Shown one piece after another: positions 10,619 through 45,944 of a DNA stretch of 45,944 nt (the stretch's first letter is position 1; each line of letters starts with the position of its first letter). Made by a program: the position numbers and the translations under genes. The notes beneath the pieces are model-generated. The model saw only the letters and a program-made list of their open reading frames with translations. It was not told the DNA's origin and did not search any database. This stretch comes from Acidobacteriota bacterium. Lineage in GTDB: Bacteria; Acidobacteriota; Vicinamibacteria; Vicinamibacterales; UBA2999. The stretch lies in NCBI GenBank assembly GCA_021730945.1, contig JAKFYH010000038.1, forward strand, positions 1 through 45,944, read 5' to 3'.

Positions 10619-10681
10619 CTCCCGACCAGTAGTTCCCTCCCGACAAGCAGCACCCTCCCGACAAGCAGTGCCCTCCCGGCA
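10619..10681 (-). repeat. 18-bp tandem repeat array, locus 1
   Basis: Three full units and a partial fourth follow one another at 10619-10636, 10637-10654, 10655-10672 and 10673 onward. The plus-strand unit is close to CTCCCGACAAGCAGTGCC. The array starts about 8 bases past the stop codon of the cytochrome c gene. Read in that gene's direction the unit is GGCACTGCTTGTCGGGAG, the same unit and orientation as at 39638-39699. Confidence 0.85.
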
Positions 10682-10688
10682 GCGTCCG

Positions 10689-11135
10689 TCAGTGCTTCAG
10701 CGTCCGCAGGAAATTCACCAGATTCCACATCCCTGTAACCGGGATCCGCCCGGCATAGGCCTGCATGTCGGTGGAGGTCCCTTCAGCGATCACCGAGAAG
10801 ATCTCACCGTCGCTGCTGCCAAACTCCCACTGATCGTCGGTGAAGTCAGCCGGCTGGCCGCCGCCGCTGGCGCCGCCGCCATCACCGCGGCCCGACCCAC
10901 CATGGCAGTGGGCGCAGTGCTCGACATAGAGTGCGCGGCCGGCTTCCATCGAGGTCTCCGTCGATGGCACCGGGTTCTCCACCTGCGCCGCCACCGGATT
11001 GCCGCCACGCCGCGGCATGGTCGCGCCGGCGCCCTGGGCGTGCAGCCACGCCACCGCGCAGACGGCCGCCACCAGGCCCGCCACCACGGCAGAGCTCAAC
11101 AATCCGCGCAAATCGAGAACAGCCTGCGGGCTCAC
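10689..11135 (-). CDS. Small membrane-anchored or secreted c-type cytochrome
   Basis: From the GTG at 11135 the protein has 148 residues. A hydrophobic N-terminal segment (LLSSAVVAGLVAAVCAVAWLHAQG) serves as signal or anchor. A single cytochrome c domain follows with the haem attachment site CAHCH and a later Met in STDMQAYAG that can be the sixth iron ligand. The ending GMWNLVNFLRTL is the usual last helix. Such proteins shuttle electrons on the outer face of the inner membrane. The frame stays open further upstream but would run through the promoter of the divergent PadR gene, so the GTG start is preferred. Its redox partner is not evident; the only neighbours are the tRNA and the PadR unit. 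Confidence 0.8.
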   Translation of the reverse strand: MSPQAVLDLRGLLSSAVVAGLVAAVCAVAWLHAQGAGATMPRRGGNPVAAQVENPVPSTETSMEAGRALYVEHCAHCHGGSGRGDGGGASGGGQPADFTDDQWEFGSSDGEIFSVIAEGTSTDMQAYAGRIPVTGMWNLVNFLRTLKH

Positions 11136-11231
11136 GGTTGTCCGCCGAGGATAGCATTGCCAGTTCTGGCGCCTGGCCGGCAAGGGCTGATCGATGGGAC
11201 GAGGAACATCGAACCCGCCGGGTTCGTATGG

Positions 11232-11255
11232 TATACATATGTCGATAGACGACAT
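11232..11255 (+). promoter_or_regulatory. Likely PadR operator and -10 region
   Basis: ATGTCG-ATAGA-CGACAT at 11239-11255 is a perfect dyad of the ATGT...ACAT type known for PadR regulators. It is preceded by the small palindrome ACATATGT (11235-11242) and a possible extended -10 TGGTATACA. The dyad covers the first ATG of the padR-like gene, which points to autoregulation and perhaps to translation from the next ATG (11254). Confidence 0.5.
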
Positions 11256-11601
11256 GTCGACGGATAAAACCGACAAGAAAGAACTGCTGAGCGGCACGCT
11301 CGACCTGCTGATTCTGAAGACCCTGGACACCATGGGCGCCCTGCATGGCTACGCCATTGCCCGCCGCCTGGAGCAGATGTCGGCCAGCGTGATGCGGCTC
11401 AGCCAGGGCTCGATCTATCCAGCCTTGATCCGCCTCGAGCAGAACGGCTGGATCGCCACCAAGTGGGGCATCTCCGAAACCAACCGCAAGGTGAAGATCT
11501 ACTCGCTCACCAGGGCAGGTACGAAGCGGCTGCAGATCGAAGTGGCCAACTGGGAACAGGCCACGGCCCTGGTGGCGCGGGTCCTCGGAGCCAAGGCATG
11601 A
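11239..11601 (+). CDS. PadR-family transcriptional regulator
   Basis: The 120-residue protein is a PadR winged-helix regulator. It shows the family's opening GTLDLLILKTLDTMGALHGYAIARRLE, the recognition region SQGSIYPALIRLEQNGWI, and the wing KVKIYSLTRAGTKRLQ. Proteins of this short type usually repress a neighbouring transporter gene until a ligand binds. The stop codon overlaps the start of the ADOP permease by 4 bases (ATGA), so the two are translationally coupled. A dyad covers the first ATG, so an internal start at 11254 (MSTDKTDKKELL) is a real alternative. The identity is secure; the ligand is unknown. Confidence 0.9.
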   Translation: MSIDDMSTDKTDKKELLSGTLDLLILKTLDTMGALHGYAIARRLEQMSASVMRLSQGSIYPALIRLEQNGWIATKWGISETNRKVKIYSLTRAGTKRLQIEVANWEQATALVARVLGAKA

Positions 11602-14249
11602 CGCCGCGACGCCTCCTCCATCGCCTGCTGGCGCTCGGGCGCCAGGGTCGCCTCGATCGCGAACTGGACGACGAGGTGCAGGCCCACCTGGAACTCGCCG
11701 AACGAGACGCCCTCGCGCGCGGCCTGTCGCCCGACGAGGCGCGGGCAGAGGCCCGGCGGGCGTTTGGCGGCATCGCGCAGATGAAGGAAGTGCACCGCGA
11801 CGGCCGCAGCGCGCGCTGGCTCGAGAACCTCGCCCGCGACGTCCGCTACGGTGTCGCCTCACTCCGGCGCGAGCCGGTGTTCACGCTGGTTGCGGTCAGC
11901 GTGCTGGCGCTCGGCATTGGCGCCAACACCGCCATGTTCAGTCTCGTCGACGGCATCCTGTTCCAGCCCCTCCCCTTCCCCAACCCCGACCGCATCGTCC
12001 GCATCTGGGAGTCGCCCACGCCAGACACCAGCAACTCCACGACCACGAGCACCTTCGAAGAACTGCAACGGCGCAGCCGATCGTTCGCGGCGCTGTCGGC
12101 GGAGTCGGAGTCGACGGCGACGGTACCGATTAACGGCGAGCCCACGCGCCTCACCGGACGCTACGTCTCGGCCGATCACTTCGCGGTCTTCGGCGTCCAG
12201 CCGCTCATCGGCCGCAACTTTCGGCCGGAGGAGGACCGGGCCGGCGCCGCGCGCGTCGTCATCCTGAGCCATGCCGCCTGGCAACAGCACTTTGGCGGCG
12301 ACCGCGGCATTCTCGATCGCGACCTGCTCCTGGACGATGAGCCGTACAAGGTGATCGGGGTGCTGCCGCCGGGTGCGTTCGATCGGCACAGTTCGCGTCC
12401 CCTCGTGGATCCGGCCAGCTTCTGGCGCCTGAATGCCTTCACACCCGAGGAACGCGCCGCCAGTTCGCACTGGCTTAATCCGATCGGGCGCCTGAAACCC
12501 GGCGTCTCGCTGGCACAGGCGCAGGCCGACGTGCTGGCGGTCCGCAGCCAGATTGCCGGCCAGATTCCCGCGTGGAAGCAGGACTGGAGCATGAAGGTCG
12601 AACCGTTTGACGAACTGCTGGTCGGCGATCGGTTGCGGCAATCCATCTACCTGGCGCTCGGCGCCGTGGTGCTGGTGCTGCTGATCGCGTGCGCAAACAT
12701 CACCAGCCTGCTGCTGGGCCGGAGCGCGGCCCGCCGCAAGGAAATGGCGGTGCGCGTCGCGCTCGGCGCCGGTCGCGGCCGCCTTGCCGCGCAACTGCTC
12801 ACCGAAACGCTGGTCTTGGGCGCGCTCGGCGGCGCGGCTGGTGTGGGCCTGGCGGTGTTCCTGATCCAACTGGCGGTGCCGCTGGTGCCGGCCATGCCGT
12901 TCACGGCCGAGGTCGCCCTCAACTGGCGCGTGCTCGCCTTTGCCGTGGCAATGGTATTGGCCGTGTCGGTGCTGGTCGGCGTGCTGCCGGCGATCCGGGT
13001 CTCCACCGGCTCGGCGGTGGTCGCGCTCAACCAGGCCGGACGCGGATCGTCTGGCGTGAACGACCGCGCACGGCGGTTGATCGTGGCGGCCGAAGTGGCG
13101 GTGTCGGTCATCCTGATCTGCGGCGCGTTCCTGCTGTTCAAGAGCCTGGGCCGTCTGCAGCAGGTGGACATCGGCGCCCGCATCGACCGCGTTGTTACGA
13201 TGTCGGTGGACCTGCCATACGAGCGTTATCCCTCGGGCCATCATCTCGCGGCCTTCTACCCCATGCTGATCGAACGGCTGCAAGCCGTGCCCGGCGTCGA
13301 GTCGGCCGCGATCGCCGGCGACGTGCCGCTCGAAGGCACCGGCGGCGAGAACTTGCGGATGCCTGGACGCGACGAGCGCCTGTTGGTGCGCTTCAAACGG
13401 GCCGATGCGGCGTATTTTTCGACGCTCGGCATTCCCGTGATCGCCGGACGCGGATTCACTCCCGAAGATCGTATCGGCACGCCCTATGTGGTGGTGGTTA
13501 ACGAAGGCCTGGCCAGGCGGTTGCGCGACCGTTTCGGCGTGACCAACCCGATCGGCGCCACCGTCGATCTGCCGGCGCTGGGCTTTGGCCGCGACCGCCG
13601 CGCCGAGATGACGATCGTCGGCGTGATCGGCAACGAACGCGTGGACGGTGATCTGCGACGCCCGGCCAGCGAGATCGCCTACGTGCCGCTCGCGCAGGCG
13701 CCGCGCATGCAGGTGAAGCTGGCAGTGCGCACGCGGGGCGATGCCCTGGCGGTGGTGCCCGCCATTCGCGAAGCGGTACGCCAACTCGACCCGCGGCTGG
13801 CGCTGGCCGACATTCACACCATGGAGGAGATCTGGGGCCGCAGCCTGTCCGGCTTGCGCGAGCCGGTGTGGCTGATCGGGATCTTCGCCCTGGTGTCGGT
13901 ACTACTGGCGGGCATCGGGCTCTACGGCGTCCTATCGCACGCGGTGGCACAACAACGCCGCGAGATTGGCATTCGCATGGCGCTCGGCGCCCGCGCCCAC
14001 GACGTCCTGTCATTGGTCGCACGCAATACCCTGACCATGGTGATCCTTGGCCTGGGCGCCGGGTTGGCGGGCGCCTTCGTCCTCACCCGGGTGACCGGCA
14101 GCCTGCTGTTCGAAGTGTCGGCGCGTGATCCGTGGGCGTTTGTTGCCGGTGCCATCGGCATGGGTCTGGTCGCCATGGTGGCGGCCCTGGTCCCGGCGCG
14201 GCGGGCCTCGCGGGTCGACCCGACGCTGGCGCTTCGCAGCGACGGCTAG
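11598..14249 (+). CDS. ADOP-type ABC transporter permease (MacB/FtsX fold)
   Basis: The 883-residue permease belongs to the acidobacterial duplicated orphan permeases. Residues 1 to about 70 are the soluble permease-prefix domain (LDRELDDEVQAHLELAERD...ARRAFGG). Next come helix 1 (FTLVAVSVLALGIGANTAMFSLV), a MacB-like periplasmic domain, and a three-helix FtsX block (LVLLIACANITSLLLGRSAARRKEMAVRVALGA). A second periplasmic domain and a second FtsX block (LLAGIGLYGVLSHAVAQQRREIGIRMALGA) complete it. No ATPase gene lies next to it, as is usual for this group. Substrates are mostly unknown; MacB relatives export or act mechanically at the periplasm. It forms an operon with the overlapping PadR gene. 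Confidence 0.9.
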   Translation: MTPRRLLHRLLALGRQGRLDRELDDEVQAHLELAERDALARGLSPDEARAEARRAFGGIAQMKEVHRDGRSARWLENLARDVRYGVASLRREPVFTLVAVSVLALGIGANTAMFSLVDGILFQPLPFPNPDRIVRIWESPTPDTSNSTTTSTFEELQRRSRSFAALSAESESTATVPINGEPTRLTGRYVSADHFAVFGVQPLIGRNFRPEEDRAGAARVVILSHAAWQQHFGGDRGILDRDLLLDDEPYKVIGVLPPGAFDRHSSRPLVDPASFWRLNAFTPEERAASSHWLNPIGRLKPGVSLAQAQADVLAVRSQIAGQIPAWKQDWSMKVEPFDELLVGDRLRQSIYLALGAVVLVLLIACANITSLLLGRSAARRKEMAVRVALGAGRGRLAAQLLTETLVLGALGGAAGVGLAVFLIQLAVPLVPAMPFTAEVALNWRVLAFAVAMVLAVSVLVGVLPAIRVSTGSAVVALNQAGRGSSGVNDRARRLIVAAEVAVSVILICGAFLLFKSLGRLQQVDIGARIDRVVTMSVDLPYERYPSGHHLAAFYPMLIERLQAVPGVESAAIAGDVPLEGTGGENLRMPGRDERLLVRFKRADAAYFSTLGIPVIAGRGFTPEDRIGTPYVVVVNEGLARRLRDRFGVTNPIGATVDLPALGFGRDRRAEMTIVGVIGNERVDGDLRRPASEIAYVPLAQAPRMQVKLAVRTRGDALAVVPAIREAVRQLDPRLALADIHTMEEIWGRSLSGLREPVWLIGIFALVSVLLAGIGLYGVLSHAVAQQRREIGIRMALGARAHDVLSLVARNTLTMVILGLGAGLAGAFVLTRVTGSLLFEVSARDPWAFVAGAIGMGLVAMVAALVPARRASRVDPTLALRSDG

Positions 14250-14325
14250 GCGGCCCTGGCCGTCGTGACGCCGGATGGCCTCCTCAAGCTGCTGGCCTTG
14301 CTGCGCTCGCTCTAGCGGATCGGCC

Positions 14326-14370
14326 GGGGTCAGGGCCCGCCCTGATCCCCGATCCCTGATCCCCGATCTC
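14326..14370 (-). repeat. GATC-rich repeat and hairpin abutting a stop codon
   Basis: Directly after the TAG of the creatininase-like gene (14373-14371) the minus strand reads GAGATCGGGGATCAGGG, then ATCGGGGATCAGGGC, so a unit close to GATCGGGGATCAGG occurs twice. The second copy folds back on CCCTGACCCC through a GGG loop, giving a terminator-like stem. It also separates this gene from the convergent ADOP permease. Confidence 0.65.
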
Positions 14371-16104
14371 CTATCGTCCCGGGTTGCCGCCGCGGCCGCC
14401 GCGCTGCGGCGGGTTCTTCAGCAGCATGTACTGGCCAATCGCGGCGTTCACCTTGAACTCAATGCCCATGCGGCCGATCTCGGCTGTGGCCTTCATCGGA
14501 TCGCCCGACACGCCCGAGTCCTTGGGTCCGCCCCAGGGCATCAGCATGTTCTTGCGAATGCCGGCGGGGTTGACGTGCAGCATCTGCGCGGTGTCGCTGA
14601 TGCCCGCGTGCGAGCCAATCACGTCATCGGTGTAGCCGAAGGCGGCCTGCATCCAGGCGCGGTAGTGCACGCGGCCATCTTCGTAATAGGCCGTGAGTGC
14701 GTAGGCCCTGGTGGTGCCGCCCTTCCATTCTTCGTTGAGCTTGTTGGCCACGGCCACCATGCCGGCCTGGTTACCGCCGCTGTCGCCGATGAACAGGATG
14801 TCGGTGGCGCCGTGCGCCTTGAGGCTGCGGGCAGCGGCGTCGAGCAGCAGGTCGTAGGCCGGTGACGGCAGCGAGATGCCGCCGGGGTTCTGGCGATCGG
14901 GATCGCCTTCGGGCACGTACTGGATCACCGGCGCCACCAGCGCGTTCTTCAGCTTGCGCGCCATCACGTTGGCAGCATGGGTGACGGTGTAGTTATGCTT
15001 GCCCATCACCATGTGATAACCGTTCTTCTCGGTGCCGCCGGTCGGGATGATGAACACGGTCTTGCCGGCCTTCATCGCATCGCGATTCTCTTCCCACGTC
15101 AGTTCGTCGATGAACACGGTGTCGGGCGCCTTGGTCGGCGTCTTGCTCGCCGGCGCCGTGATCATGGTGGGCTGGGGCGGCCCGGCCGGCGCGGCCGGAC
15201 GACCGGCACCGCCGCCGCGGCCGCCGCCGCCCTGCGGCGCCTGCGCCGCCGCCACCGGCGGCTCGCTGCCGGCCATCTGGCGCTTGAGTTGCGCCAGCGC
15301 GTTGTCGATCTTGATCTGCATGAACACCTTGCCAATTTCCGGCGTCGACTTCGAGGGGTCGCCGCTCACGCCGTTATTGGGGTAGTCGTTGCCGGTCATG
15401 CGATCGCGCCGCACATGCCTGGGGGCGATGAACAGCAGCTCGGAGGTGTCGAGCAGGTTGGCGTGGCCGCCGATCTGGTCCTCGGGAATCTTCAAGTTCG
15501 CGGTGATCCACTTGTTCTGGTCGCTGTGCGACTTGGTGTAGTAGTCGTCCGCCCAGTACGCAGTGGCCGCGCCCTGCCACAGGGCGTTTAACTTCTCGGC
15601 CGCCGTGCGCATGCCGGTGCGGTTGCCGCCCGACTCGCCGAGGAACAGGATCTTCTTGAAGCCGCCCGCCTTCAGGCTGCGGCCGGTCATCACCAGCAGT
15701 TCGATGAAGCGATCCTCGGGCAGCGTAATGGTGCCGGGCTTGCCCATGTGGCCGCCGACGGTCTCCCAGCTGCCTTCGGGCACGTAGGTGATGACCGGGG
15801 CCACCAGCGTCTTGCCCAGGCCGCGCGCGATCTTGTCGGCGGCATAGTGCATGACGAACTTGTGCTCGCCGTCGACCATGTGCGGACCCTTCTGCTCGGT
15901 GCCCGCGGTGCCGACGATCACCGACGTCGAGCCACCGGCGACCAGGTCGCGGACCTCGGCCCAGGTCAATTCCTCGATGAACACCGTGTCGGGCGGTTTG
16001 CCCGCCGACATGGTGGCGGGAGCGTTGTCGGGCCGTTGCGCCGATAGCGAGAGCGCCAGGACGAGCGGCAGGGCGAGAAGGCAGGCGAACACGCGATTCT
16101 TCAT
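14371..16104 (-). CDS. Secreted protein with two creatininase-like domains
   Basis: The 577-residue protein has a signal peptide (VFACLLALPLVLALSLSAQ) and two tandem creatininase-fold domains (about 37-270 and 315-565). They are joined by a Gly/Pro-rich linker (QGGGGRGGGAGRPAAPAG). Each repeats the same landmarks: DTVFIEELTW, a TEQKGPH or TEKNGYH motif, LVAPVI.YVPEG, and a GESGGN or GDSGGN motif. Normal family members bind two metals through EQHGPH, a following Asp, and NGHGGN. In both copies the first His is Lys or Asn, the Asp aligns with His, and NGH is GES or GDS. Creatinine hydrolysis is therefore unlikely, and another amidase role or altered metal site is possible. ATG 16104 is chosen because it begins the signal peptide. 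Confidence 0.75.
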   Translation of the reverse strand: MKNRVFACLLALPLVLALSLSAQRPDNAPATMSAGKPPDTVFIEELTWAEVRDLVAGGSTSVIVGTAGTEQKGPHMVDGEHKFVMHYAADKIARGLGKTLVAPVITYVPEGSWETVGGHMGKPGTITLPEDRFIELLVMTGRSLKAGGFKKILFLGESGGNRTGMRTAAEKLNALWQGAATAYWADDYYTKSHSDQNKWITANLKIPEDQIGGHANLLDTSELLFIAPRHVRRDRMTGNDYPNNGVSGDPSKSTPEIGKVFMQIKIDNALAQLKRQMAGSEPPVAAAQAPQGGGGRGGGAGRPAAPAGPPQPTMITAPASKTPTKAPDTVFIDELTWEENRDAMKAGKTVFIIPTGGTEKNGYHMVMGKHNYTVTHAANVMARKLKNALVAPVIQYVPEGDPDRQNPGGISLPSPAYDLLLDAAARSLKAHGATDILFIGDSGGNQAGMVAVANKLNEEWKGGTTRAYALTAYYEDGRVHYRAWMQAAFGYTDDVIGSHAGISDTAQMLHVNPAGIRKNMLMPWGGPKDSGVSGDPMKATAEIGRMGIEFKVNAAIGQYMLLKNPPQRGGRGGNPGR

Positions 16105-16131
16105 GCGGCCTAGCCTACACCGAAAGACCAG

Positions 16132-16167
16132 GGTGCCCAAGGTGCCAAAGGTGCCAAGGGTGCCGGG
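16132..16167. repeat. 9-bp tandem repeat between divergent genes
   Basis: Four copies of a unit close to GGTGCCAAG stand head to tail at 16132-16140, 16141-16149, 16150-16158 and 16159-16167. They are followed by a GC-only palindromic stretch. The array lies between the start codons of the creatininase-like gene and the phosphatase lipoprotein gene, so it may sit in or near their promoters. Confidence 0.8.
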
Positions 16168-23936: not shown

Positions 23937-24443
23937 ATGGACGCAGGCATTCTTTTCGCGCGGGTGGTCGTGGGTTTGTTGATGGCGGCGCACGGCTCGC
24001 AAAAGCTGTTCGGCTGGTTTGGCGGCTACGGCCTGGCGGGAACCGCCGGGTTCTTCGAAGCCCTGGGATTCCGGCCCGGACGCTTCTTTGCCGCCACGGC
24101 GGCGACCACGGAGCTGGTGGCCGGACTGCTGGTTGCGGCAGGCCTGCTGGGGCCGGTCGGCCCGGCCCTGTTTGTGTCGGTGATGCTGGTGGCAGCCGTC
24201 TCAGTGCACTGGCCCAACGGTGTCTTCGCCCAAAGCAACGGCATTGAGGTGCCGCTGCTGTACGGCGTAGCCGGCGTGGCACTGGCCCTGACCGGATTCG
24301 GCGCGTTCTCGCTGGACTCGGCGCTCGGCCTCACGGAGTTCTGGACACCGGCCATCGTGTGGTCCGCCCTGGCGGTCGGGACCCTCGGCGGAATCGTCAA
24401 CCTCGCGCTTCGCCGGCCCGGCCCGGCGTCGGCTCATGCCTGA
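23937..24443 (+). CDS. DoxX-family membrane protein
   Basis: The 168-residue inner-membrane protein has four hydrophobic helices and the DoxX signature LFARVVVGLLMAAHGSQKLFGWFGGYGLAGT at the start. It continues with ATTELVAGLLVAAGLLGP and a SVHWPNGVF loop. DoxX-like proteins are linked to thiol or redox balance and quinone-related functions, but their activity is poorly known. The ATG at 23937 is preferred over that at 23928, because AGGAG (23921-23925) is only 2 bases from the earlier one and family members begin close to MDAG. Divergence from an HxlR gene over a shared operator suggests induction by a reactive compound. Confidence 0.88.
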   Translation: MDAGILFARVVVGLLMAAHGSQKLFGWFGGYGLAGTAGFFEALGFRPGRFFAATAATTELVAGLLVAAGLLGPVGPALFVSVMLVAAVSVHWPNGVFAQSNGIEVPLLYGVAGVALALTGFGAFSLDSALGLTEFWTPAIVWSALAVGTLGGIVNLALRRPGPASAHA

Positions 24444-24450: not shown

Positions 24451-24506
24451 AACAGGAGATCAGGAGAAAGCAGTCCTTTCAAAAGACTACCTCCTGATCT
24501 CCTGTT
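24451..24506 (+). repeat. AACAGGAGATCAGGAG hairpin after the doxX-like gene
   Basis: AACAGGAGATCAGGAG (24451-24466) and its exact reverse complement (24491-24506) enclose a 24-base loop. The hairpin begins 7 bases past the stop codon. The loop has a further AGTC/GACT pair. A related element follows another stop codon at 35623-35574 on the minus strand. Confidence 0.85.
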
Positions 24507-24550: not shown

Positions 24551-25645
24551 ATGGGCCTCTTGCCTGGGCGGGCCGTAGTGTGGGTGACGCTCTGCCTGGC
24601 TCTTGCCTCGGCGTGGGCGGGTTGCGCCGCCGATCGCGTTGAGCCGGTAGCAGAGGCAGTTCCAGCCAAGCTGATCGAAACGCCGGCACCGGCTGCGCAG
24701 GTTCCCGCGGTTGCAGCGCCCACGGCTGAGCCCGCGGAGCAGCACGCCCAGACGGTCGCGCTACCGCGCGCGGTCACTCCCTTTCCGCCGGGGCTGACCG
24801 GCACGCTGGTGTTTCAGTCCGACCTGGCCAGCCCTGACAACCCCAACGGCCGCACCCGCATCTACACCATGGCGCTCGCCAGCGGCCAGGTCGTGGCGCT
24901 CACGCGCGGCAGCGATCATCGCGATGAGAATCCGCGCTGGTCGCCCGACGGCACCCGCATCGCGTTCAAGTCCAACCGCGACGGGGCCGGTTACGACCTC
25001 TATGTGATGGATGCCACCGGCGCCAACCCGGTCCGCATCACCGATCACCCCGCCAACGACCACGACCCGGCCTGGATGCCCGACGGTAAGAGCCTGATCT
25101 TCAGCTCCGAGCGCGACAGCCGCAGTGACCTGTACCGCGTATGGCTCGCCGATCGCCGGGTCGAACGGCTCACGCGCAACTTCGTCGGCCGGGCCATCAT
25201 GCCCAACGTCTCGCCCGATGGGCGCTCGGTCGCGTTTGCGGCACAGACGCTGGCGCGCCTGCAATTCTGGGAATTCCAAGTGCACGTGCTGGATCTGGCC
25301 ACCGGCCAGACCCGCGCGCTCGACAACAACGGCGGCGCCTGCTGGCCGGCGTGGTCGCCCGATGGGCAGTCGCTCGCCAATGTCCTGTTGGCCACCGAAC
25401 CCTCCACCATCCAGATCCGCGGCGGCGACGGCAACGGCGCTCGAACGGTGCGCGGCGATCCGGCCAGGTGGCACTACTACCCGGAATGGTCGCCCGATGG
25501 CCGCTGGCTGGCCCTCTCGGTCAGCCCGGAGCATCACGAGGGCGAAGATTGGGATCTGGCAGTTCTGCGCGTGGATGGCGCGGGCTCTGCCGAGCGGCTG
25601 ACGACCGGCGCCGGCAACGACCGACTGCCGGATTGGAAGCCGTAG
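24551..25645 (+). CDS. TolB-like (PD40) beta-propeller protein, probable lipoprotein
   Basis: The 364-residue protein has an N-terminal hydrophobic signal ending WAGC, a weak lipobox. A Pro/Ala-rich spacer is followed by a six-bladed propeller of TolB/PD40 repeats, with DENPRWSPDGTRIAFKSNRDG, DHDPAWMPDGKSLIFSSERD, MPNVSPDGRSVAF, CWPAWSPDGQSLA and YYPEWSPDGRWLALS at regular 40-45-residue spacing. Proteins of this kind act as periplasmic binding or scaffold modules. There is no enzymatic domain, unlike the S9 peptidases whose propellers look similar. The next gene starts 47 bases on. An earlier start at 24521 would place charged residues before the signal. Confidence 0.8.
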   Translation: MGLLPGRAVVWVTLCLALASAWAGCAADRVEPVAEAVPAKLIETPAPAAQVPAVAAPTAEPAEQHAQTVALPRAVTPFPPGLTGTLVFQSDLASPDNPNGRTRIYTMALASGQVVALTRGSDHRDENPRWSPDGTRIAFKSNRDGAGYDLYVMDATGANPVRITDHPANDHDPAWMPDGKSLIFSSERDSRSDLYRVWLADRRVERLTRNFVGRAIMPNVSPDGRSVAFAAQTLARLQFWEFQVHVLDLATGQTRALDNNGGACWPAWSPDGQSLANVLLATEPSTIQIRGGDGNGARTVRGDPARWHYYPEWSPDGRWLALSVSPEHHEGEDWDLAVLRVDGAGSAERLTTGAGNDRLPDWKP

Positions 25646-25692
25646 GATCGCAATTCTTGGAACAGTGTCTGACACCGTGGCAGAATCTGCAG

Positions 25693-29140: not shown

Positions 29141-29335
29141 GTTGAAAGTTGAAAGTTGAAAGTTGAAAGTTTCAGTTTGGAGTTTCAGTTTGGAGTTTCA
29201 GTTAGAAGTGTCAGTTTGGAGTGTCAGTTAGAAGTTGTCCAGTTTCAGGAACTGGAAACTGACACTTCAAACTGACACTTCAAACTGAAACTCCAAACTG
29301 AAACTGCCAACTTTCAACTTTCAACTTTCAACTTA
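29138..29335. repeat. GTTGAAA heptamer arrays forming a giant inverted repeat between two stop codons
   Basis: Four GTTGAAA units directly follow the TAA of the NatB-like gene. The same heptamer, on the minus strand, directly follows the TAA of the convergent gene (29335-29333). Between them lie alternating AGTTTCAGTTTGG- and AGTGTCAGTT-like units and their reverse complements around a centre near 29240-29260. The whole stretch can fold into one stem of about 90 base pairs. It is far more A/T-rich than its surroundings and could act as a two-way terminator. Confidence 0.9.
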
Positions 29336-31815: not shown

Positions 31816-31861
31816 GGGCCTGACCCCCATTTTCACCAAATGGTGGGTTGGGGCCAGGCCC
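31816..31861 (-). repeat. GGGGTCAGGCCC-type inverted repeat around a stop codon
   Basis: GGGCCTGACCCC (31816-31827) and GGGGCCAGGCCC (31850-31861) pair with one mismatch. The stop codon of the VanZ-like gene (31835-31833) lies in the loop, so the last codons (GAWPQPTIW) form one arm. On the minus strand the stop runs straight into AAATGGGGGTCAGGCCC. Confidence 0.7.
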
Positions 31862-32924
31862 CGTACACCCGGATTCCGGCCCCGAACACCAGGATTCCGG
31901 CGGCGCTCCAGAGCCACCAACGCGGAAATGTGTAGATCGGATACGGCTCCGCCTGGCTCTCAAACGGCGCGCGGTCGCCGGCCGCGGCAGCCTCGGCTTC
32001 GGCCCGCTGCGCCGGCGCCCAGCGGTGGCCGGTCGCCGACACATACGACGGTGTATCAAGCACCGGCGCATAGAAGGCCTCCAGGATTCGGTTCTCCGAC
32101 CAGGCGGTCGCGGCCTCGCCGTTGTTACGGCGGCGGACGTGCCAGAGTCCCTCGTCCATGTACTGGTCTTCACGCGAGAGCCGATGCAGGACGAGCGGCG
32201 GATTCGCCTGCCACTGCTCCGCGCGTTCCCGCGCCAATTGGGCCAGCACCGCTTCGCAATAGTGCGACCGGAACTCGAGGCCATCGCGAACAATCGCGTG
32301 GCCGAGGTGGACTTGATCGATGAAGAACGCCAAACCCACGGCCGCCAGGCTGCCGACCACGGCCAGCCGGCGGCGCGAGCGGGCGCCGATCTGCCACGAG
32401 AAGGCGGCCGGCGGATCGGCCGCCACGCTGAAGACCAGCCCACAGGCCACTGCCACCAGATCCAGCAGCACATCGTGCAGCTCGCCGACCCGCACCGGGA
32501 TGAACCACTGCAGCCACTCTTCCGCCAGGCCCACGATCAGCCCAGCCAGCAACGGCAACACCACGCATGACGCGTCGCCGGTCGATCGCCAGACGCGATA
32601 GAAGACAAACGCAATCAGCCCGTACTCGACAAAATGCACGCGCTCGGCCCAGTCGACCTCAGCAGCGCCGGTGGCGGTGATCAGGCTGTAGCTGATGCCG
32701 GCCGCGAGCGCGGCGCCGATCGCGCCATAGCGAAGCCCGCGTTGCTCGCGAATCCGCCGCACGGCCGCCACCACGCCCACGCCCACCAGGGCCACGACGA
32801 CGGTGACGACCACCGGCAGGAAGAGGCCGGGAGCGGTGCGACGCAGCCAGGCACTGAGTTGGCCCACGAACGGCGCCGCCAGCACCAGGGCCGCCGACGC
32901 GGTGGCCGCCAGCACCAGCTTCAT
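31833..32924 (-). CDS. VanZ-like membrane protein with C-terminal extension
   Basis: The 363-residue protein contains the VanZ-like core of four or more helices in its first half. The diagnostic acidic and His motifs are WAERVHFVEYGLIAFVFYRVWR, then GLAEEWLQWFIPVRVGELHDVLLDLVAV at about residues 115-160. A soluble segment (FIDQVHLGHAIVRDGLEFRSHY...RRRNNGEAATAWSENRILEAFY) and a last helix (WWLWSAAGILVFGAGI) follow. The function of VanZ-like proteins outside glycopeptide resistance is unclear. The ATG overlaps the stop of the small PEGA-like gene by 4 bases, so the two work together. The C-terminus is partly made of repeat DNA. Confidence 0.75.
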   Translation of the reverse strand: MKLVLAATASAALVLAAPFVGQLSAWLRRTAPGLFLPVVVTVVVALVGVGVVAAVRRIREQRGLRYGAIGAALAAGISYSLITATGAAEVDWAERVHFVEYGLIAFVFYRVWRSTGDASCVVLPLLAGLIVGLAEEWLQWFIPVRVGELHDVLLDLVAVACGLVFSVAADPPAAFSWQIGARSRRRLAVVGSLAAVGLAFFIDQVHLGHAIVRDGLEFRSHYCEAVLAQLARERAEQWQANPPLVLHRLSREDQYMDEGLWHVRRRNNGEAATAWSENRILEAFYAPVLDTPSYVSATGHRWAPAQRAEAEAAAAGDRAPFESQAEPYPIYTFPRWWLWSAAGILVFGAGIRVYGAWPQPTIW

Positions 32925-34291: not shown

Positions 34292-34298
34292 CGTGGGG

Positions 34299-35573: not shown

Positions 35574-35623
35574 CCAGGAGATCAGGAGCATTTACTTTGG
35601 CTCCTCGCCTCCTCAACTCCTGT
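35574..35623 (-). repeat. ACAGGAG...AGGAG inverted repeat directly after a stop codon
   Basis: On the minus strand the TAA of the 4Fe-4S gene (35626-35624) runs directly into ACAGGAGTTGAGGAGGCGAG, and the partner arm GCTCCTGATCTCCTGGT follows nine bases later. The arms pair imperfectly. The same core, ACAGGAG-N3-AGGAG, follows the doxX-like gene in the same orientation. Confidence 0.75.
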
Positions 35624-36514
35624 TTATCGAACGGGCTGGAGTGGCAGGTAGGCGATCTTTCTCGAGTTGTATTCGATGATCCGCCAGTGCGGACACTTGG
35701 CGGTGTCGGCATACAGCCGCTCACAGTCGTCGCAGCGGACGCACTCGGTGACCAGGATCTTCGGCCCCTCGATCGCGCCCCACTGGCAGGTCTTCTGGCA
35801 CATCGTGCAGGTGTTGCACTCCGACCAGCGCTTGATCCGGAACACGGTGAGATACGACAGCAGTCCGAGCGTGGCGCCGACCGGGCACAGGAAACGGCAA
35901 TACACGTTGCGGACAAAGACCGTCACCAGCAGCAGCGCCGCCACGCCCAGCCACATCGCGGTGGTGCCGAACAGGCCGAACAGCCAGAACGGCTCGACGA
36001 AGCGATAGATCAGCAGGTCGTGGGTCAGCAGGTAGTAGCCCAGGACCGCGGCAAGCAGGCCGAACTTGATCAGGCTGGCCCGCTTTTCCATGCCGCGCGG
36101 GACGTCGAATCGCCAGCGGTCGGGCAGCACCACGTCGAGCGCCTGGGTCAAGGCGCCGTAGGCGCAGATCCGCCCGCAATAGAGCCGGCCCCACAAGATG
36201 GTGGAGACGACGGTGAAGCCGAAGAACAGGTACCAGGCGATGTTGTACTTCGGCACCGGCCAGTTCCAGTCGAGGATGCCGAAGATGTTGGTGATCGAAA
36301 TCAGGTAGCTCTTCGCAAACCCCATGTAGCCGATGGCGAGCGCGAACGTCACCAGCTTGAGCGGTACGCTCTTGCGGGAGAAGCTGACCCAGGCAAACGC
36401 CAGGAACGCAGCCAGCAGGGCGATGTCGAGGTACTGCGGTCCGAGGATGTCGGCCCAGGTTTCGGCCGCGATTTCCTCGAACCCCCACGGGTCGTCGGCC
36501 GGCTGTCCAAGCAT
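35624..36514 (-). CDS. Membrane 4Fe-4S protein, C-terminal half of a split NosR/NirI-like protein
   Basis: The 296-residue protein has about six helices. Two CxxxCP/A-type motifs sit at the membrane face (LYCGRICAYGALTQ near 110 and VYCRFLCPVGATLG near 210). A C-terminal ferredoxin-like domain follows with CNTCTMCQKTC and CVRCDDC, enough Cys for two 4Fe-4S clusters. This is the transmembrane and iron-sulfur half of NosR, NirI or PceC-like proteins, which carry electrons across the inner membrane. The flavin half is the preceding gene, whose TGA overlaps this ATG by one base (TGATG). A GTG at 36517 is an alternative start. Confidence 0.85.
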   Translation of the reverse strand: MLGQPADDPWGFEEIAAETWADILGPQYLDIALLAAFLAFAWVSFSRKSVPLKLVTFALAIGYMGFAKSYLISITNIFGILDWNWPVPKYNIAWYLFFGFTVVSTILWGRLYCGRICAYGALTQALDVVLPDRWRFDVPRGMEKRASLIKFGLLAAVLGYYLLTHDLLIYRFVEPFWLFGLFGTTAMWLGVAALLLVTVFVRNVYCRFLCPVGATLGLLSYLTVFRIKRWSECNTCTMCQKTCQWGAIEGPKILVTECVRCDDCERLYADTAKCPHWRIIEYNSRKIAYLPLQPVR

Positions 36515-37948: not shown

Positions 37949-37949
37949 C

Positions 37950-38504: not shown

Positions 38505-39632
38505 ATGACCGCCCGATTGGCTGCGACCACCATCCTGGCCGCAGCGATAGTTTCGTCAACCGCCCTCACCACGGCGGTGCCCTATGCCGCCGCCCCCGTG
38601 CCACGGGCGACGCTCACCGCCGCAACGCCGCTGCTATTGCCTGGCAATGTCGACTCGAACAGCCCCTTGGTGTGGGACCTCGAAGATGGCCAGTCGCGGC
38701 TGTTCGTCATGACTTCCCACAGCGGTGTGCCGTCGATCGGCGCCGGAGGCGCGGTCGACCGGCTTGCCAAGCTGGGCGACATCTCCCTGTTGCCGCATCC
38801 CGGCTACGGCGTGTGGATGGAGGCGATGGTCCGTGACGACGTGGCGACGTGGTACGGTTTCTACCACAACGAATGGCCGGCGACCGCGTGCGGACGCCCG
38901 GATCGCTTCGTGCCGCGGATCGGCGCCGCCAAGTCCACCGACCGTGGCCGCAGCTGGCAGGACCTGGGTGTCATCCTGCAAGCGACCCAGAATACCGTCG
39001 GCTGTGAGTCGACCAACCGTTACGTGATCGGCGGGGTCGGCGATCTCAGCGTCATGCTCGACGCCAACAAGCAGTATCTCTATGTCTTCTACAGCCAGTA
39101 CCAGAAAGACGTGACCTCGCAGGGCGTGGCAGTGGCGCGCATGGCGTGGGCCGATCGCGATCGCCCGGCCGGGCGCCTGGCCATCTGGCGCGGCGGCATC
39201 TGGGAACCCAACGCCGGCCGCCGCGAGTTGTCGGACCTGCTGCCTGGCGCCTTGCGCCGGCGGCTCGAGTGGACCTATCCGGCGGCGACGCCGCTCCAGG
39301 TCACGACGCAGGCCTGGCACGATGGCAACGACAAGGTCGATGCGTTCTGGGGGCCGGCGGTGCACTGGAACACGGCAATCGAGCAGTACGTGATGCTGCT
39401 CAACCGTGCCAGGGACGAGAACTATACCCAGGAGGGCATCTACGTCTCGTTCGCGCCGCGCCTCGACGACCCGGGGTTGTGGTCGCCGCCGCAGAAGCTG
39501 TTGAACGGCGGCAAGTGGTACCCGCAGGTCGTCGGTTCGTCCCCCGGTACCGGGACCGACAAAATAGCCGGCGCGTCGGCGCGTTTCTTCCTGAGCGGGC
39601 GCTCAGATTGGATGATTAACTTCGCGAAGTGA
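38505..39632 (+). CDS. Secreted beta-propeller (sialidase/GH43-like fold) protein
   Basis: The 375-residue protein has a signal peptide (LAATTILAAAIVSSTALTTA). A propeller-like repeat structure follows: a first blade SPLVWDLEDGQSRLFVMTSHSG, a BNR-like SAKSTDRGRSWQDLGVIL segment (Asp-box style S.D.G.SW), then VMLDANKQYLYVFYSQY and AVHWNTAIEQYVMLLNRARDENYTQEGIYVSFA. It resembles the five-bladed glycosidase or sialidase-like fold, but I cannot see a secure set of catalytic acids. A carbohydrate-related role is possible only. Its TGA is followed within about 10 bases by the 18-bp tandem repeat. A GAAGG ribosome site precedes the ATG. Confidence 0.6.
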   Translation: MTARLAATTILAAAIVSSTALTTAVPYAAAPVPRATLTAATPLLLPGNVDSNSPLVWDLEDGQSRLFVMTSHSGVPSIGAGGAVDRLAKLGDISLLPHPGYGVWMEAMVRDDVATWYGFYHNEWPATACGRPDRFVPRIGAAKSTDRGRSWQDLGVILQATQNTVGCESTNRYVIGGVGDLSVMLDANKQYLYVFYSQYQKDVTSQGVAVARMAWADRDRPAGRLAIWRGGIWEPNAGRRELSDLLPGALRRRLEWTYPAATPLQVTTQAWHDGNDKVDAFWGPAVHWNTAIEQYVMLLNRARDENYTQEGIYVSFAPRLDDPGLWSPPQKLLNGGKWYPQVVGSSPGTGTDKIAGASARFFLSGRSDWMINFAK

Positions 39633-39637
39633 AACAG

Positions 39638-39699
39638 GCCGGGAGGGCGCTACTTGTCGGGAGGGCACTGCTGGTCGGGAGGGCACTCCTGGTCGGGAT
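39638..39699 (+). repeat. 18-bp tandem repeat array, locus 2
   Basis: Three units close to GGCACTGCTTGTCGGGAG stand at 39646-39663, 39664-39681 and 39682-39699, after a partial one. The array begins about 6 bases past a stop codon, in the same orientation relative to the upstream gene as locus 1 (10619-10681). It encodes GRALLVG repeats in one frame, probably by chance. Confidence 0.85.
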
Positions 39700-39765
39700 T
39701 GTGATTCTTGCCGGGGGTGCTTTTCTCCCGGCGCAAGCGCCCGAGCGACCGGCGCCGACCCGGAC

Positions 39766-40087
39766 GTGCCCCGGCACGATCGTCCGTGCCTCGAGCCCGT
39801 CGATGAACTCGAGCGTGCGCACCCAGCCGGTGGGATACGCCACGCTCGGCGTCTTCCGCGCGCTGCTCTAGCAAGGGGCCGCCGCGCGCGCCCGCGGCCT
39901 GGATCCGGACACCGCCCGCACCGCAATCATGCCGGGACTGCGCGACCTGATGGTGCAGATCACGGGCGATGCACCCGGCGCCAATAACGCGTTCACCACC
40001 CAACTGGTGGACTGGTTCCTGCACCGCGTCTACGACGAGCGCGCGGGGCCGCTGAGCGACGCCATCGCGCCGATCCCGGCCAAGTAG
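39766..40087 (+). pseudogene. Rearranged remnant of an MBL-fold metallo-hydrolase gene
   Basis: No intact gene spans this stretch. The plus frame from about 39842 reads TLGVFRALL, an in-frame TAG (39869-39871), then QGAAARARGLDPDTARTAI...QLVDWFLHRVYDE to a TAG at 40085-40087. This looks like the C-terminal helices of an MBL-fold hydrolase. The piece that should precede it, AYPTGWVRTLEFIDGLEARTIVPGH, is present but on the minus strand (about 39840-39766). A small inversion plus a nonsense change fits. Upstream the frame only holds the repeat array. The MBL identity rests on these short matches. Confidence 0.45.
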
Positions 40088-40120
40088 GGCCGCAGAGTCA
40101 CAGCCGCAGCGTGGTTGTCT

Positions 40121-40216
40121 CACGAAGGTTCCATCGCGAAGGTTCCATCACGAAGGTTCGATCACGAAGGTTCGATCACGAAGGTTCCATCACAAAGGTT
40201 CGATCACTAGGGTTCG
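40121..40216 (-). repeat. 14-bp tandem repeat overlapping a stop codon
   Basis: Units close to GGTTCGATCACGAA stand at 40127, 40141, 40155, 40169, 40183, 40197 and, partial, 40211. The stop codon of the XRE-like gene (40209-40207) and its last codons for Glu-Pro lie inside the array, so the repeat has replaced or extended the gene end. Confidence 0.88.
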
Positions 40217-40883: not shown

Positions 40884-40908
40884 CGGCAACTCCTGCACCG
40901 ATAGTAAC

Positions 40909-40935
40909 GCATGCTTGTCTAAAAGACAAGCATGC
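40909..40935 (-). promoter_or_regulatory. Palindromic operator upstream of the membrane protein/XRE operon
   Basis: GCATGCTTGTCT-AAA-AGACAAGCATGC is a perfect 12-bp inverted repeat 26 bases before the start codon. On the minus strand, TTGTCT inside it could be a -35 box, with TACTAT 17 bases on as -10. It is the natural binding site for the HTH protein of the operon. It might also act as a hairpin terminator for the gene ending at 40949. Confidence 0.65.
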
Positions 40936-40948
40936 AAGACATTACTGA

Positions 40949-41269: not shown

Positions 41270-42093
41270 AGCGGTAGAGTAACAGATCTCCGGGCCAGAT
41301 CGAGTACCGCCTCGGCCGACCACCCCGCGGCACGCAAGTCGCGAACACCCGTGTCGCCGTCGGCCTTGCTGAGCTTGTCGGTAGCCGACTTCATCACCAG
41401 CCCATGATGTGCAAAACGCGGCATGGCGGTGCGCCCGAGCAGCCGCGCCAGCCGGATTTGCCGGCCAGTCGACGCCAGCAGGTCCACGCCGCGAATGACA
41501 TCGGTGATCGCCTGCAGGTGGTCATCGACGGTCACCGCGAACTGGTAGGTCCAGTTGCCCAGCCGGTCGCGCAGCAACAGGTCACCACACTGGGCCGACG
41601 GATCCTGCACCTGCGGCCCGAGGATCTCGTCGAAGAACGACTCCGTCCCCAGCTCGATCCGCAGCCGCCATCCAACGCCGTCGCCAAGCGGCAGGTCGCG
41701 ATCGCGGCAGGTGTTGGGATAGCGCAACTCGGATCCCGGATGCCGGACGCCGGCTCCCGGGTCAGGGGTCCCGACGCCCGCCGCCAGTTCGGCTCGTGTG
41801 CACGAGCACCCGTACACGAGCTCCCGATCGATCAGGGGCTGCAGCGCTTTTCGGTAGACCGCGTCCCGCTCGCTCTGCCGGACGGCCGGGCCGTCGGGCT
41901 GAAAGCCCAGCCACGCCAGGTCCTCCAGGATCGCCGCCTCGTACTCAGGGCGTGACCGCTGGCGGTCGTGGTCCTCGATCCGGAGCAGGACCCGCCCGTC
42001 GCGGTCGTGGGCCGCCTGCCACACGTGGAGGGCATTGACGACGTGGCCGAGGTGCAGGAAGCCGGTGGGGGCCGGAGCGAACCGTGTAATCAC
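41266..42093 (-). CDS. gluQ: Glutamyl-Q tRNA(Asp) synthetase
   Basis: The 275-residue enzyme is a shortened glutamyl-tRNA synthetase that attaches glutamate to queuosine in the anticodon of tRNA-Asp. It shows the class I start VITRFAPAPTGFLHLGHVVNAL, the zinc site C-S-C-T...Y-P-N-T-C, QFAVTVDDHLQAITDVIRGVDLL, and the KLSKADG version of the KMSKS motif. It lacks the anticodon-binding domain, as expected. Between the second Cys and the Tyr of the zinc site there are about 15 extra residues of low complexity (VGTPDPGAGVRHPGSE) compared with E. coli GluQ. The start is probably GTG 42093; ATGs at 42192 and 42201 would add a tail and overlap the divergent kinase gene. Confidence 0.9.
   Translation of the reverse strand: MITRFAPAPTGFLHLGHVVNALHVWQAAHDRDGRVLLRIEDHDRQRSRPEYEAAILEDLAWLGFQPDGPAVRQSERDAVYRKALQPLIDRELVYGCSCTRAELAAGVGTPDPGAGVRHPGSELRYPNTCRDRDLPLGDGVGWRLRIELGTESFFDEILGPQVQDPSAQCGDLLLRDRLGNWTYQFAVTVDDHLQAITDVIRGVDLLASTGRQIRLARLLGRTAMPRFAHHGLVMKSATDKLSKADGDTGVRDLRAAGWSAEAVLDLARRSVTLPL
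41730..41780. repeat. Repeat-like GC insert within gluQ
   Basis: This segment is built of near copies of GGATCCCGGATGCCGGACGC and GGGTCAGGGGTCCCGACGCC. It resembles the intergenic GATC-rich and GGGTCAGG repeats elsewhere in the window, and it codes for the extra loop in the GluQ zinc site. Confidence 0.5.
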
Positions 42094-42199
42094 GAGACCA
42101 CTGGAGGATACCCTGCCGCCACTCGACCGCGCATTCACGCCGCTCGGGGCCGCCGCGGCGACCGCCGGCGCCGGGATTGGCGTATAACCCATTAGCGCC

Positions 42200-44107: not shown

Positions 44108-45198
44108 TCCGCGTGGTGCTGGTCGACGACGAGCCGCCGGCGCGCGTCCGCATGCGGCAGTTGCTCGACGCCGCCGGTGGCGTCACGGTGGTCGGCGAAG
44201 CCGGCAGCGCCGTCGAGGCCCGCGAGGTGATCCGCGCGACCCGGCCCGACCTGCTGTTCCTCGACGTCGAAATGCCGGAGGTGCGCGGCACCACGCTCGC
44301 CGCCTCCCTGCCCGAACCCCGTCCCTACATCGTCTTTGCCACCGCCTTCGAAAGCTACGCCCTCGACGCCATCGCCGTCGACGCCACCGACTACCTGCTG
44401 AAGCCGGTCTCGCGCGTCAAGCTGGCGGCCACGCTCGATCGGGTACGGGCACGGCTGGCCAGGCAATCGGATCTTGAACGCGATGTCGAGGCCGGTTCGC
44501 GCGTGCAGTTGCAAATGTGGCCTGGCGCCTTGCCGTCGATCCCCGGCTTCGACTGCGCCGCGGCGTCACTGCCGGCCCGCGGCGTCGGTGGCGATTTCTA
44601 CGATGCCTTCGCGCTGGGCGGGCCCTCGTGGGCATTGCTGCTGGGAGATGCCTCGGGCAAGGGCGTCGCGGCGGGCCTCGTCGCGTCGGCGGTGCAGGCC
44701 CGCGTCCACACCGCGGCCCGGCTGGCGAAGCTGGCGCCTGCCGACCTGATGGCCGCCGTCGATCGCGATGTCTATGCCACCACCGATGGCGCCCGCTACG
44801 CCACCGCGATCTATGCAGTACTCGACGCCGAGACACGCCACCTGTCGCTGGTCAACGCCGGACACCCCGCGGTCATGGTGGTCAACGGCACCTCGGTCAC
44901 CCGCCTCGACGCGTCCGGTCCGGCACTGGGCCTGATCGAGGCGGGGCACTTCTCGTCCCATGCGGTGACACTGGCCCCCGGCGCACTGCTGGTGGCCTAT
45001 ACCGACGGCGTCAACGAGGCCTGCAACGAGGACAATGCCGAGTTTGGCGAGGAGCGGCTGGCATCGTTGCTGGCGGCCAACGACCGACTGCCGGCCGCCG
45101 GGCTCTGTTCCTGTATTCTCGACGCCGTGCGCCAGTATCGCGGCAATCGCCAGGATCAAGACGACGTCACTGCGTTGGTCGTGAGGGCCCTCGGATGA
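44104..45198 (+). CDS. Response regulator with SpoIIE/PP2C-type phosphatase output
   Basis: The 364-residue protein joins a receiver (about 1-120) to a PPM phosphatase of the SpoIIE/RsbU kind (about 135-364). The receiver has acidic pocket DDE at 8-10, phosphorylation site Asp54 in LLFLDVEMPE, and YALDAIAVDATDYLLKPV, which is LytR-like. The phosphatase shows GVGGDFYDAF, LLLGDASGKGVAAGLVAS, VNAGHPAVMVV, VAYTDGVNEA and QDDVTALVV, so the metal-binding Asp residues are present. These enzymes remove phosphate from anti-sigma-factor antagonists. No such partner is in the window. The start and end overlap its two neighbours by 4 bases each. Confidence 0.92.
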   Translation: MIRVVLVDDEPPARVRMRQLLDAAGGVTVVGEAGSAVEAREVIRATRPDLLFLDVEMPEVRGTTLAASLPEPRPYIVFATAFESYALDAIAVDATDYLLKPVSRVKLAATLDRVRARLARQSDLERDVEAGSRVQLQMWPGALPSIPGFDCAAASLPARGVGGDFYDAFALGGPSWALLLGDASGKGVAAGLVASAVQARVHTAARLAKLAPADLMAAVDRDVYATTDGARYATAIYAVLDAETRHLSLVNAGHPAVMVVNGTSVTRLDASGPALGLIEAGHFSSHAVTLAPGALLVAYTDGVNEACNEDNAEFGEERLASLLAANDRLPAAGLCSCILDAVRQYRGNRQDQDDVTALVVRALG

Positions 45199-45932
45199 TC
45201 CGCGCGCTGCTGGTGGACGACGAGCAGCCGGCCCGCGAGCGGCTGCGGCAATTACTCAGCGCCCACCCCGACGTGACCGTGGTCGGCGAAGCCGACGACG
45301 GGATTGAGGCCGCCGAAAAGATCGCTGAACTGGCGCCCGATCTGGTCCTGCTCGACATCCAGATGCCCGGCGCCAGCGGACTCGATGTCGCCGCCTCGCT
45401 GGGACGGCCGCGGCCGGCGGTGATCTTCTGCACGGCCTACGATCAGTACGCCGTCGATGCGTTCGAACTCTCGGCGGTCGACTACCTGCTGAAGCCGGTC
45501 AACCGCGCGCGGCTGGCGGCGGCGCTCGATCGCGTACGCGCGGCCGGCGCGCCGCGCGGCCACGACCGCGCCCTGGACGAGTTGTCGCACGCCACCGGCC
45601 TCTCGCCGACCCGCTTCCTCGCCCGTCGCGGTGCGCGCTTTCGCGTGGTCCCGGTCCACGACGTGGTCGCCTTCACGTTCATCGATGGCGTCACTCACCT
45701 CATCACGCTCACCGAACAGCTCACGATGCAGCCGACCCTGGCGGCGCTGGCCCGCCGGCTCGACAGTGTCACCTTCTTCCAGGTCTCGCGCACGGCCATC
45801 ATCCGTCTCGACGCGGTGCGCGAAGCCAAGCCCTTCGCCGATGGCACGGGAGAGATCACACTCGCCAGCGGCACGACGATGCCGGTGGCGCGGCGGCGCT
45901 GGCGGGCGCTGATCGAGAAACTGGAATCGTAG
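45195..45932 (+). CDS. LytTR-family DNA-binding response regulator
   Basis: The 245-residue protein is a receiver (Asp54 in LVLLDIQMPG, DDE at 8-10, YAVDAFELSAVDYLLKPV) joined to a LytTR DNA-binding domain from about residue 140. The LytTR part shows FLARRGARFRVVPVHDVVAFTFIDGVTHLIT, LAALARRLDSVTFFQVSRTAIIRLDAVRE and ITLASGTTMPVARRR. It is the usual partner of LytS-type kinases. Its receiver is very like that of the preceding gene, pointing to duplication. One kinase would therefore drive both a transcription factor and a phosphatase. The stop codon opens a palindrome at the window edge. Confidence 0.93.
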   Translation: MIRALLVDDEQPARERLRQLLSAHPDVTVVGEADDGIEAAEKIAELAPDLVLLDIQMPGASGLDVAASLGRPRPAVIFCTAYDQYAVDAFELSAVDYLLKPVNRARLAAALDRVRAAGAPRGHDRALDELSHATGLSPTRFLARRGARFRVVPVHDVVAFTFIDGVTHLITLTEQLTMQPTLAALARRLDSVTFFQVSRTAIIRLDAVREAKPFADGTGEITLASGTTMPVARRRWRALIEKLES

Positions 45933-45944
45933 GGCGCGCCCTAC
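45929..45944. repeat. 16-bp palindrome at a stop codon
   Basis: GTAGGGCGCGCCCTAC is a perfect palindrome that includes the TAG of the LytTR gene and reaches the window end. It may be the start of a longer hairpin beyond the edge. Confidence 0.6.

Follow-up and report, generated by a model that had tools for sequence, protein, structure and literature searches.

Why should short repeats of quite different sequence lie right at the stop codons of genes? The question is raised by a 45,944-nucleotide stretch of an Acidobacteriota genome (the window, positions 1-45944 of contig C39 in the genome named here G000, which amounts to 4.73 Mb in 67 contigs), where an earlier note based on the sequence alone had listed ten gene ends at which the stop codon is followed by a short tandem or inverted repeat. 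Genes were called with a hexamer-based caller written for this analysis, which is not a standard annotation; it gave 40 genes in the window and a coding share of 93% in a first 837-kb sample of G000. All ten stops are ends of called genes, and the repeats adjoin, overlap or straddle them. Bacterial repeats are usually treated family by family; here the position at the gene end is constant, the family is variable, and the stop codon can be completed by the repeat.

Position of the repeats relative to stop codons

Positions were counted in a 1.27-Mb sample of G000 comprising 1107 genes and 780 gaps, with the overlapping stretches L219, L220 and the first half of L198 left out. As 47 of the 78 stretches retrieved besides the window contained hits known beforehand, repeat densities in this sample are inflated; the other 31 had no known hit before retrieval. 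At these inflated densities, tandem repeats make up 11.8% of the intergenic sequence against 0.9% of the coding sequence; in the 31 stretches without known hits, the shares are 8.5% and 0.7%. By type of gap, their share of intergenic bases is 18.4% between convergent genes, about 12% between co-directional genes and 7.2% between divergent genes, values of the 1.27-Mb sample that are similarly inflated.

For co-directional gaps, those with at least 20 nucleotides (nt) of slack were considered. No more than 3 nt separate stop and array in 24 of 57 cases, a count reached in 0 of 5000 simulations, against 4.2 expected from random placement in the same gap; only 3 of 57 arrays lie as close to the start. 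The excess persists with at least 60 nt of slack (9 of 29 against 0.9 expected, none at starts), in the stretches without known hits (7 of 20 against 1.6; starts 2 of 20), after removal of the three searched families (14 of 40 against 3.0; starts 3 of 40), and when the last 35 nt (12 of 27 against 1.8) or the last 80 nt (5 of 12 against 0.6) before the start are declared off limits. Counted per gene boundary, a repeat edge falls between -12 and +3 at 60 of 754 gap-bordering stops and at 11 of 806 starts (Fisher P 2e-10), and the unclipped offsets between stop and array range from -3 to +3 in 50 of 153 rows and exceed 60 nt in 36. Arrays are also present in 23 of the 138 divergent gaps of at least 30 bp. 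These counts confirm that stop-abutting repeats are real, genome-wide and more frequent than chance allows. The earlier note had named random distances from stops, or confinement to single sites, as observations that would undo its claim; for the repeat class across the genome, neither was found.

That this layout is an artefact of assembly, gene calling or low-complexity DNA is hardly credible. Several contigs do end or begin in or near a repeat, and the gene caller was custom-made, but a similar architecture is seen in separately deposited congeners, a reversed control for the 18-bp repeat gave 0 places against 84, and most protein ends are conserved.

Repeats at the gene ends of the window

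The repeats concerned, with one counter-example in a divergent gap, are as follows.

10618-10678, minus strand: 18-bp array, sense unit CGGGAGGGNNCTNCTKGT, 10 nt past the stop at 10689.
14340-14368, minus strand: 14-bp array, sense GGGGATC AGGGATC (GGGNATC-like), 2 nt past the stop at 14371.
16132-16164, unstranded: array of the word GGTGCCAAA in a divergent gap, the counter-example; its family is kept in the congener G007.
24451-24506, unstranded: CAGGAG hairpin element AACAGGAGATCAGGAG...CTCCTGATCTCCTGTT, 7 nt past the stop at 24443.
25644-25679, unstranded: element of the repetitive extragenic palindrome (REP) or terminal inverted repeat (TIR) type, at the stop ending at 25645; absent from the earlier list.
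29141-29332, unstranded: 192-bp hairpin built from the tandem words (GTTGAAA)n-(AGTTTCAGTTTGG)n; it takes up all of the gap from one convergent stop (29140) to the other (29333), 0 nt from each.
31816-31862, unstranded: arms GGGGTCAGGCCC and GGGGCCAGGCCCC, straddling the stop at 31833.
35574-35623, unstranded: CAGGAG hairpin, 0-1 nt past the TAA stop at 35624 (TAA, then ACAGGAG).
39640-39698, plus strand: 18-bp array of the same family and orientation to the gene as 10618-10678, 7 nt past the stop at 39632.
40120-40216, minus strand: 14-bp array, sense TGATCGAACCTTCG, overlapping the stop at 40207 (offset -10).
45929-45944, unstranded: perfect 16-bp palindrome GTAGGGCGCGCCCTAC, which contains the TAG stop at 45932 and reaches the last base of the window; to judge from contig order (C38 has 46118 and C40 45516 bases), the contig ends there too.

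The earlier note described the sequences at these sites as different. There are indeed several families, but the sites at 10689 and 39632 belong to a single 18-bp family, which is also present at the latter place in G007. Likewise, a repeat following the stop describes most sites but neither 31833, where it straddles the stop, nor 45932, where the palindrome contains it. Past the stop at 39632, a GTG frame (39629-40087) reads the 18-bp array as hydrophobic, signal-peptide-like GRALLV repeats and then hits an in-frame TAG; by eye, it looks like a decayed gene.

The same gap in related species

At 29141, in the convergent gap behind the permease gene, G000 and G006 carry GTTGAAA/AGTTTC words, G007 has AGCCAGT, G001 CACGAAG and G004 words of the CTGGTTA type, and G005 and G003 have plain palindromes; at the permease locus of G008, CACAGAG words lie about 47 nt downstream. 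Two further convergent gaps hold different families in G000 and G007, and several co-directional gaps also differ between the two by eye. Orthologous gaps of congeners may thus carry a different family, the same family or none, and the claim that position rather than sequence is what these sites have in common stands, since some orthologous slots hold different families.

Among 78 non-divergent orthologous gaps of G000 and G007, an element is present in both genomes in 7, in G000 only in 6, in G007 only in 9 and in neither in 56 (P 0.004). With both gaps at least 30 bp long, the corresponding counts are 7, 1, 6 and 6 (P 0.16), so that a conservation of slots beyond gap size is not established. 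The nine gaps with elements in both genomes, two of them divergent, have the family in common in 3 cases, flank sequence only in 1 and no 9-mer in 5. At least two common 9-mers occur in 0.44 of true pairs against 0.07 of shuffled pairs, which indicates that families are also retained. A plain hairpin, CCAGGAGGGCGGCACTT(C/T)AGTGC(C/T)GCC, follows a stop at L078:1608-1677 and in the G007 orthologue; it is conserved, unlike many arrays.

A single gene end that bears different hairpins, plain ones or none from one congener to the next amounts to a natural experiment, through which the requirements of 3' ends become directly testable.

Reading frame, stop codon and junction

Protein ends were compared between species after leaving out pairs in which the relative's gap was shorter than 8 bp or both gaps were shorter than 25 bp; several rows represent one gene counted in several species. 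Where at least one of the two genomes has an element, 27 of 35 comparisons show the same last residue, or 24 of 32 if only pairs with 9 or more matches among the last 15 residues are counted; where no element was flagged, it is 18 of 24. The stop codon itself often differs between species. Truncation, in which an array inside a gene creates the stop, is unsupported as a rule by these 27 of 35 identical ends; eight rows differ.

For the CAGGAG family, the junction was inspected at 64 ends in gaps of G000 and G007. Eight lie at a stop and all eight stops are TAA, although this codon makes up just 184 of the 1050 stops of G000 and 193 of the 847 of G007. AA directly precedes the word in six of these eight and one extra A intervenes in two. 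As AA also precedes the word in 35 of the 56 ends away from stops, it belongs to the element. The base before this AA (before AACAGGAG) is T in 11 of the 35, that is, without preference, so the T is set by the need for a stop and not by a target. In the CAGGAG family, the element completes the stop codon.

The last result bears on the proposal, made in the earlier note, of an insertion process aimed at gene ends. Here, a copying enzyme would recognize stops, or a target resembling TAG, TGA or TAA, and add repeats there. HUH transposases do recognize short targets, and the sharp peak at 0-3 nt speaks for such an enzyme. Moreover, the junction TCTGACGGGAGGG occurs five times in the genome and its TGA is the called stop at all five places, the strongest hint of a more specific process, which could reflect insertion specificity. 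REPs with GTAG ends are also reported to supply TAG stops (Di Nocera, 2013; PMC3733652). Nevertheless, T is not preferred before AACAGGAG, sense and antisense copies are about equally frequent in co-directional gaps (GTTGAAAG 8:8, AGCACC 12:13; most families come in small numbers), arrays occur in divergent gaps, and TGACGGGAGGG, the same junction without its leading TC, coincides with a called stop in only 5 of 9 places of the sample. We therefore consider targeted insertion quite unlikely, with the TCTGACGGGAGGG junction leaving some room for it.

Folding and orientation

Whole gaps of 40-300 nt were compared for predicted folding. The mean z-score is -4.4 with arrays and -2.4 without in convergent gaps, -2.0 and -1.1 in co-directional gaps, and -0.64 and -0.63 in divergent gaps. 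Convergent gaps fold more strongly than divergent ones both with arrays (P 0.006) and without (P 2e-6). Predicted folding places hairpins in the gaps, a GC-rich hairpin followed by a U run being the trait of intrinsic terminators.

Such data could be explained by selection for 3' structures, also raised in the earlier note, if a hairpin or G-quadruplex after the stop ended transcription or insulated translation and any folding sequence sufficed. The strength of convergent gaps with or without arrays agrees with it, as do the inverted pairs of GTTGAAA and CAGGAG, which are present in 10 of the 16 convergent gaps but only 13 of the 58 remaining ones (P 0.005), and the 29141 slot of G005 and G003, which lacks the array and has a plain palindrome. 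Structures directly downstream of stops have moreover been described in 128 genomes (PMC7518266). The idea thus has some support from convergent gaps; divergent ones, which also contain arrays, remain unfolded. Many arrays are present in a single orientation only, the folding of arrays in co-directional and divergent gaps is alike (P 0.37), and 80-nt windows after stops are no more folded with arrays than without in gaps of similar size. On balance, selected structures as the general explanation are possible but rather doubtful. The narrower candidate that arrays act as extra-folded RNA was rejected on the comparison of these 80-nt windows in long gaps of similar length.

A strand rule, by which the word would always be sense after the stop, had been suggested by convergent gaps and was abandoned on the ratio of about 1:1 in co-directional gaps. 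Polarity within the inverted pairs of convergent gaps is uniform: the word W precedes its complement W' in 13 of 13 family entries of G000 and 8 of 8 of G007, a count in which GTTGAAAG and AGTTTCAG occupy the same three gaps and the self-complementary REP is left out. Ten CACAGAG pairs less than 100 bp apart all have this polarity as well, by eye.

Y1 transposase genes and REP-type palindromes

The Pfam model Y1_Tnp matched five places in G000. Three of these genes are flanked by repeats on both sides, a fourth has an upstream sequence resembling one arm of the palindrome at L073:3415, and no repeat was seen near the fifth. The element at 25644-25679 agrees in 33 of 36 bases with a repeat next to the Y1_Tnp gene of contig C16 (the next-best place in the window agrees in 21), and this repeat is present on both sides of the gene, as in the REP/RAYT arrangement. 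This one element is thereby linked to a transposase gene on another contig. At 31833, only the core GGGGCCAGGCCCC of the second arm (31850-31862) is common with the repeats flanking the Y1_Tnp gene at C12:131510, and the GGGGWSAS motif of Di Nocera is matched by GGGGTCAG there but not by GGGGCCAG. In the stretch L221 (C10:42001-49000), a Y1_Tnp gene lies between long arrays of GTAGCGACGGCTAAAGCCGTCGCTCTCC-like palindromes, which fits the GTAG REP type.

Tandem-word arrays were not seen in the 450-nt flanks of the five G000 Y1_Tnp genes, the only flanks inspected. They also lack the features that define REP/RAYT systems, namely a single palindrome, a GTAG or CGTC end and a transposase beside the copies.

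Repeat families and their spread

With overlapping matches counted, the AAGTTGA 7-bp doublet occurs in 45 places of G000; its reversed control is uninformative, the reversed pattern being the same repeat in another phase. Of 43 genomes of the family, four contain the 18-bp doublet, counted likewise (84, 12, 12 and 1 places, the first being G000); these four belong to one genus. The doublet is absent from four other congeners of which the completeness is above 90% or nearly so. AACAGGAGATCAGGAG has eight occurrences in G000 and one in a single other genome among 199 of the phylum. Several contig ends of G000 (in C29, C43, C45, C54, C56, C59, C60 and C62) lie in an 18-bp array or no more than about 50 bases from one, which suggests that the assembly is broken by these repeats.

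Some words extend further. The exact 16-mer CACAGAGGACACAGAG, absent from G000, is present in 19 of 119 phylum genomes and 15 of 81 genera (reversed control 0). In one of the distant genomes, G079, it stands right behind a called stop, with TAG directly joined to CCACAGAG, a junction also present in two gaps of G000. This is the only one of 12 inspected distant loci to abut a called stop, and three of the 12 have no gene called on either side, the caller having been trained on G000; stop abutment is thus established only within the genus.

Divergent gaps at L081:10101, L090:8718 and L095:7060 show by eye TANNAT-like boxes about 10 nt before the start, which suggest leaderless genes; upstream of the boxes lie arrays or repeats.

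Origin of the repeats at gene ends

We regard it as probable, though far from certain, that mobile palindromes and expanding word hairpins turn over rapidly in 3' slots of which the edges are set by the reading frame, with hairpins favored between convergent genes. Two kinds of short repeats would share the insertion-tolerant slots of this densely coding genome: REP/TIR-type palindromes, which go with transposase genes of the Y1 (HUH) kind, and word arrays with units of 7-18 bp, often forming W...W' hairpins, for which no transposase was found in the flanks inspected. Both would spread, expand and disappear quickly, and such fast turnover would allow congeneric species to hold different families at one gene end, as is the case at several loci. 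Arrays would abut the stop because little besides the reading frame is protected there. Spacer would disappear up to the last viable stop, and this stop would often be completed by the repeat's first bases, with T from the gene and AA, AG or GA from the repeat; what is observed in CAGGAG would then presumably extend to the other families. Where genes converge, one hairpin could act on both 3' ends, through termination or through insulation of re-initiation, and would probably be favored, so that inverted copies would be kept there.

Several points weigh against rapid turnover. The 0-3 nt excess persists with promoter space excluded, which plain neutral filling of gaps doesn't obviously predict, and all five TCTGACGGGAGGG junctions have their TGA at a called stop. 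The sharing of slots by G000 and G007 fades in gaps of at least 30 bp; the five congeners besides G007 provide too few pairs, and one of them, G005, shares 0 of 12. Gaps of one type do not fold significantly more strongly when they have an array (P 0.24 for convergent and 0.46 for co-directional gaps), and co-directional and divergent arrays fold alike, as mentioned above.

A bolder reading is that a dedicated process of the genus, acting with certain words perhaps also in other parts of the phylum, installs replaceable cassettes of hairpins or tandem words at stops, completes the stop from their own first bases and swaps families while protein ends remain fixed. We consider it improbable. Whichever applies, the arrays raise the question of how tandem words without a known enzyme spread.

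Comparison with known systems

The earlier statement that no named system fits was too strong, since heptamer arrays near stops and REP palindromes giving TAG stops have been published. Among the closest are the heptamer arrays with GGGNATC and GGGGA(C/T)T units known from Xanthomonas and Nostoc, which are enriched within 50 bp of stops and may overlap them; these intergenic tandem units are single or in inverted pairs and under-represented between divergent genes, and Calothrix heptamers are mentioned too (Rehm, 2015; PMC4692102). The array at 14371 is of this type: its intergenic tandem GGGNATC units read GGGGATC AGGGATC GGGGATC in sense, about 2 nt past the stop. The 18-bp, GTTGAAA and CAGGAG families differ from it by their units (18, 7 or 13, and about 8 bp) and their sequences, which are not GGGNATC.

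Palindromes of the REP/RAYT and TIR/TIRYT systems lie beside Y1 transposase genes and mostly downstream of genes, REPs occur in convergent and unidirectional gaps, and TIRYT genes from Acidobacteria are included (Di Nocera, 2013). The element at 25644 belongs to this type, the one at 31833 probably does too, and so do some of the palindromes seen in relatives. Tandem-word arrays differ, being no single palindromes and not having been seen beside the Y1 genes of G000.

Direct repeats of the heptamer TAACTGA are patchily distributed across Beggiatoaceae, Cyanobacteria and Bacteroidetes (MacGregor, 2015; PMC4679880). They resemble our arrays as heptamer direct repeats with stop triplets, but in the main genome of that study they lie mostly just upstream of starts, and a single family was considered. 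The ribosome termination structure (PMC7518266) is a structural class and not a repeat family; the likeness lies in its position right after stops.

Several intergenic heptamer families per genome are also a feature of the short tandemly repeated repetitive (STRR) sequences of cyanobacteria. We know of no stop abutment, nor of a change of family at one slot, among the STRR heptamers. Among the articles listed by a literature search, from which subscription journals were mostly absent, none dealt with many repeat families at stops or with family change at one slot, and six repeat words used as text strings matched unrelated articles.

The kind of repeat described here is therefore already known in part, through the Xanthomonas and Nostoc heptamers and the REPs; the multi-family state and the change of family per slot were not found in that literature. 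The bias toward the coding strand downstream of genes, typical of the Rehm arrays, is replaced here by a ratio of about 1:1 in co-directional gaps, and gene ends carry many families, with a change of family between congeners at several gaps.

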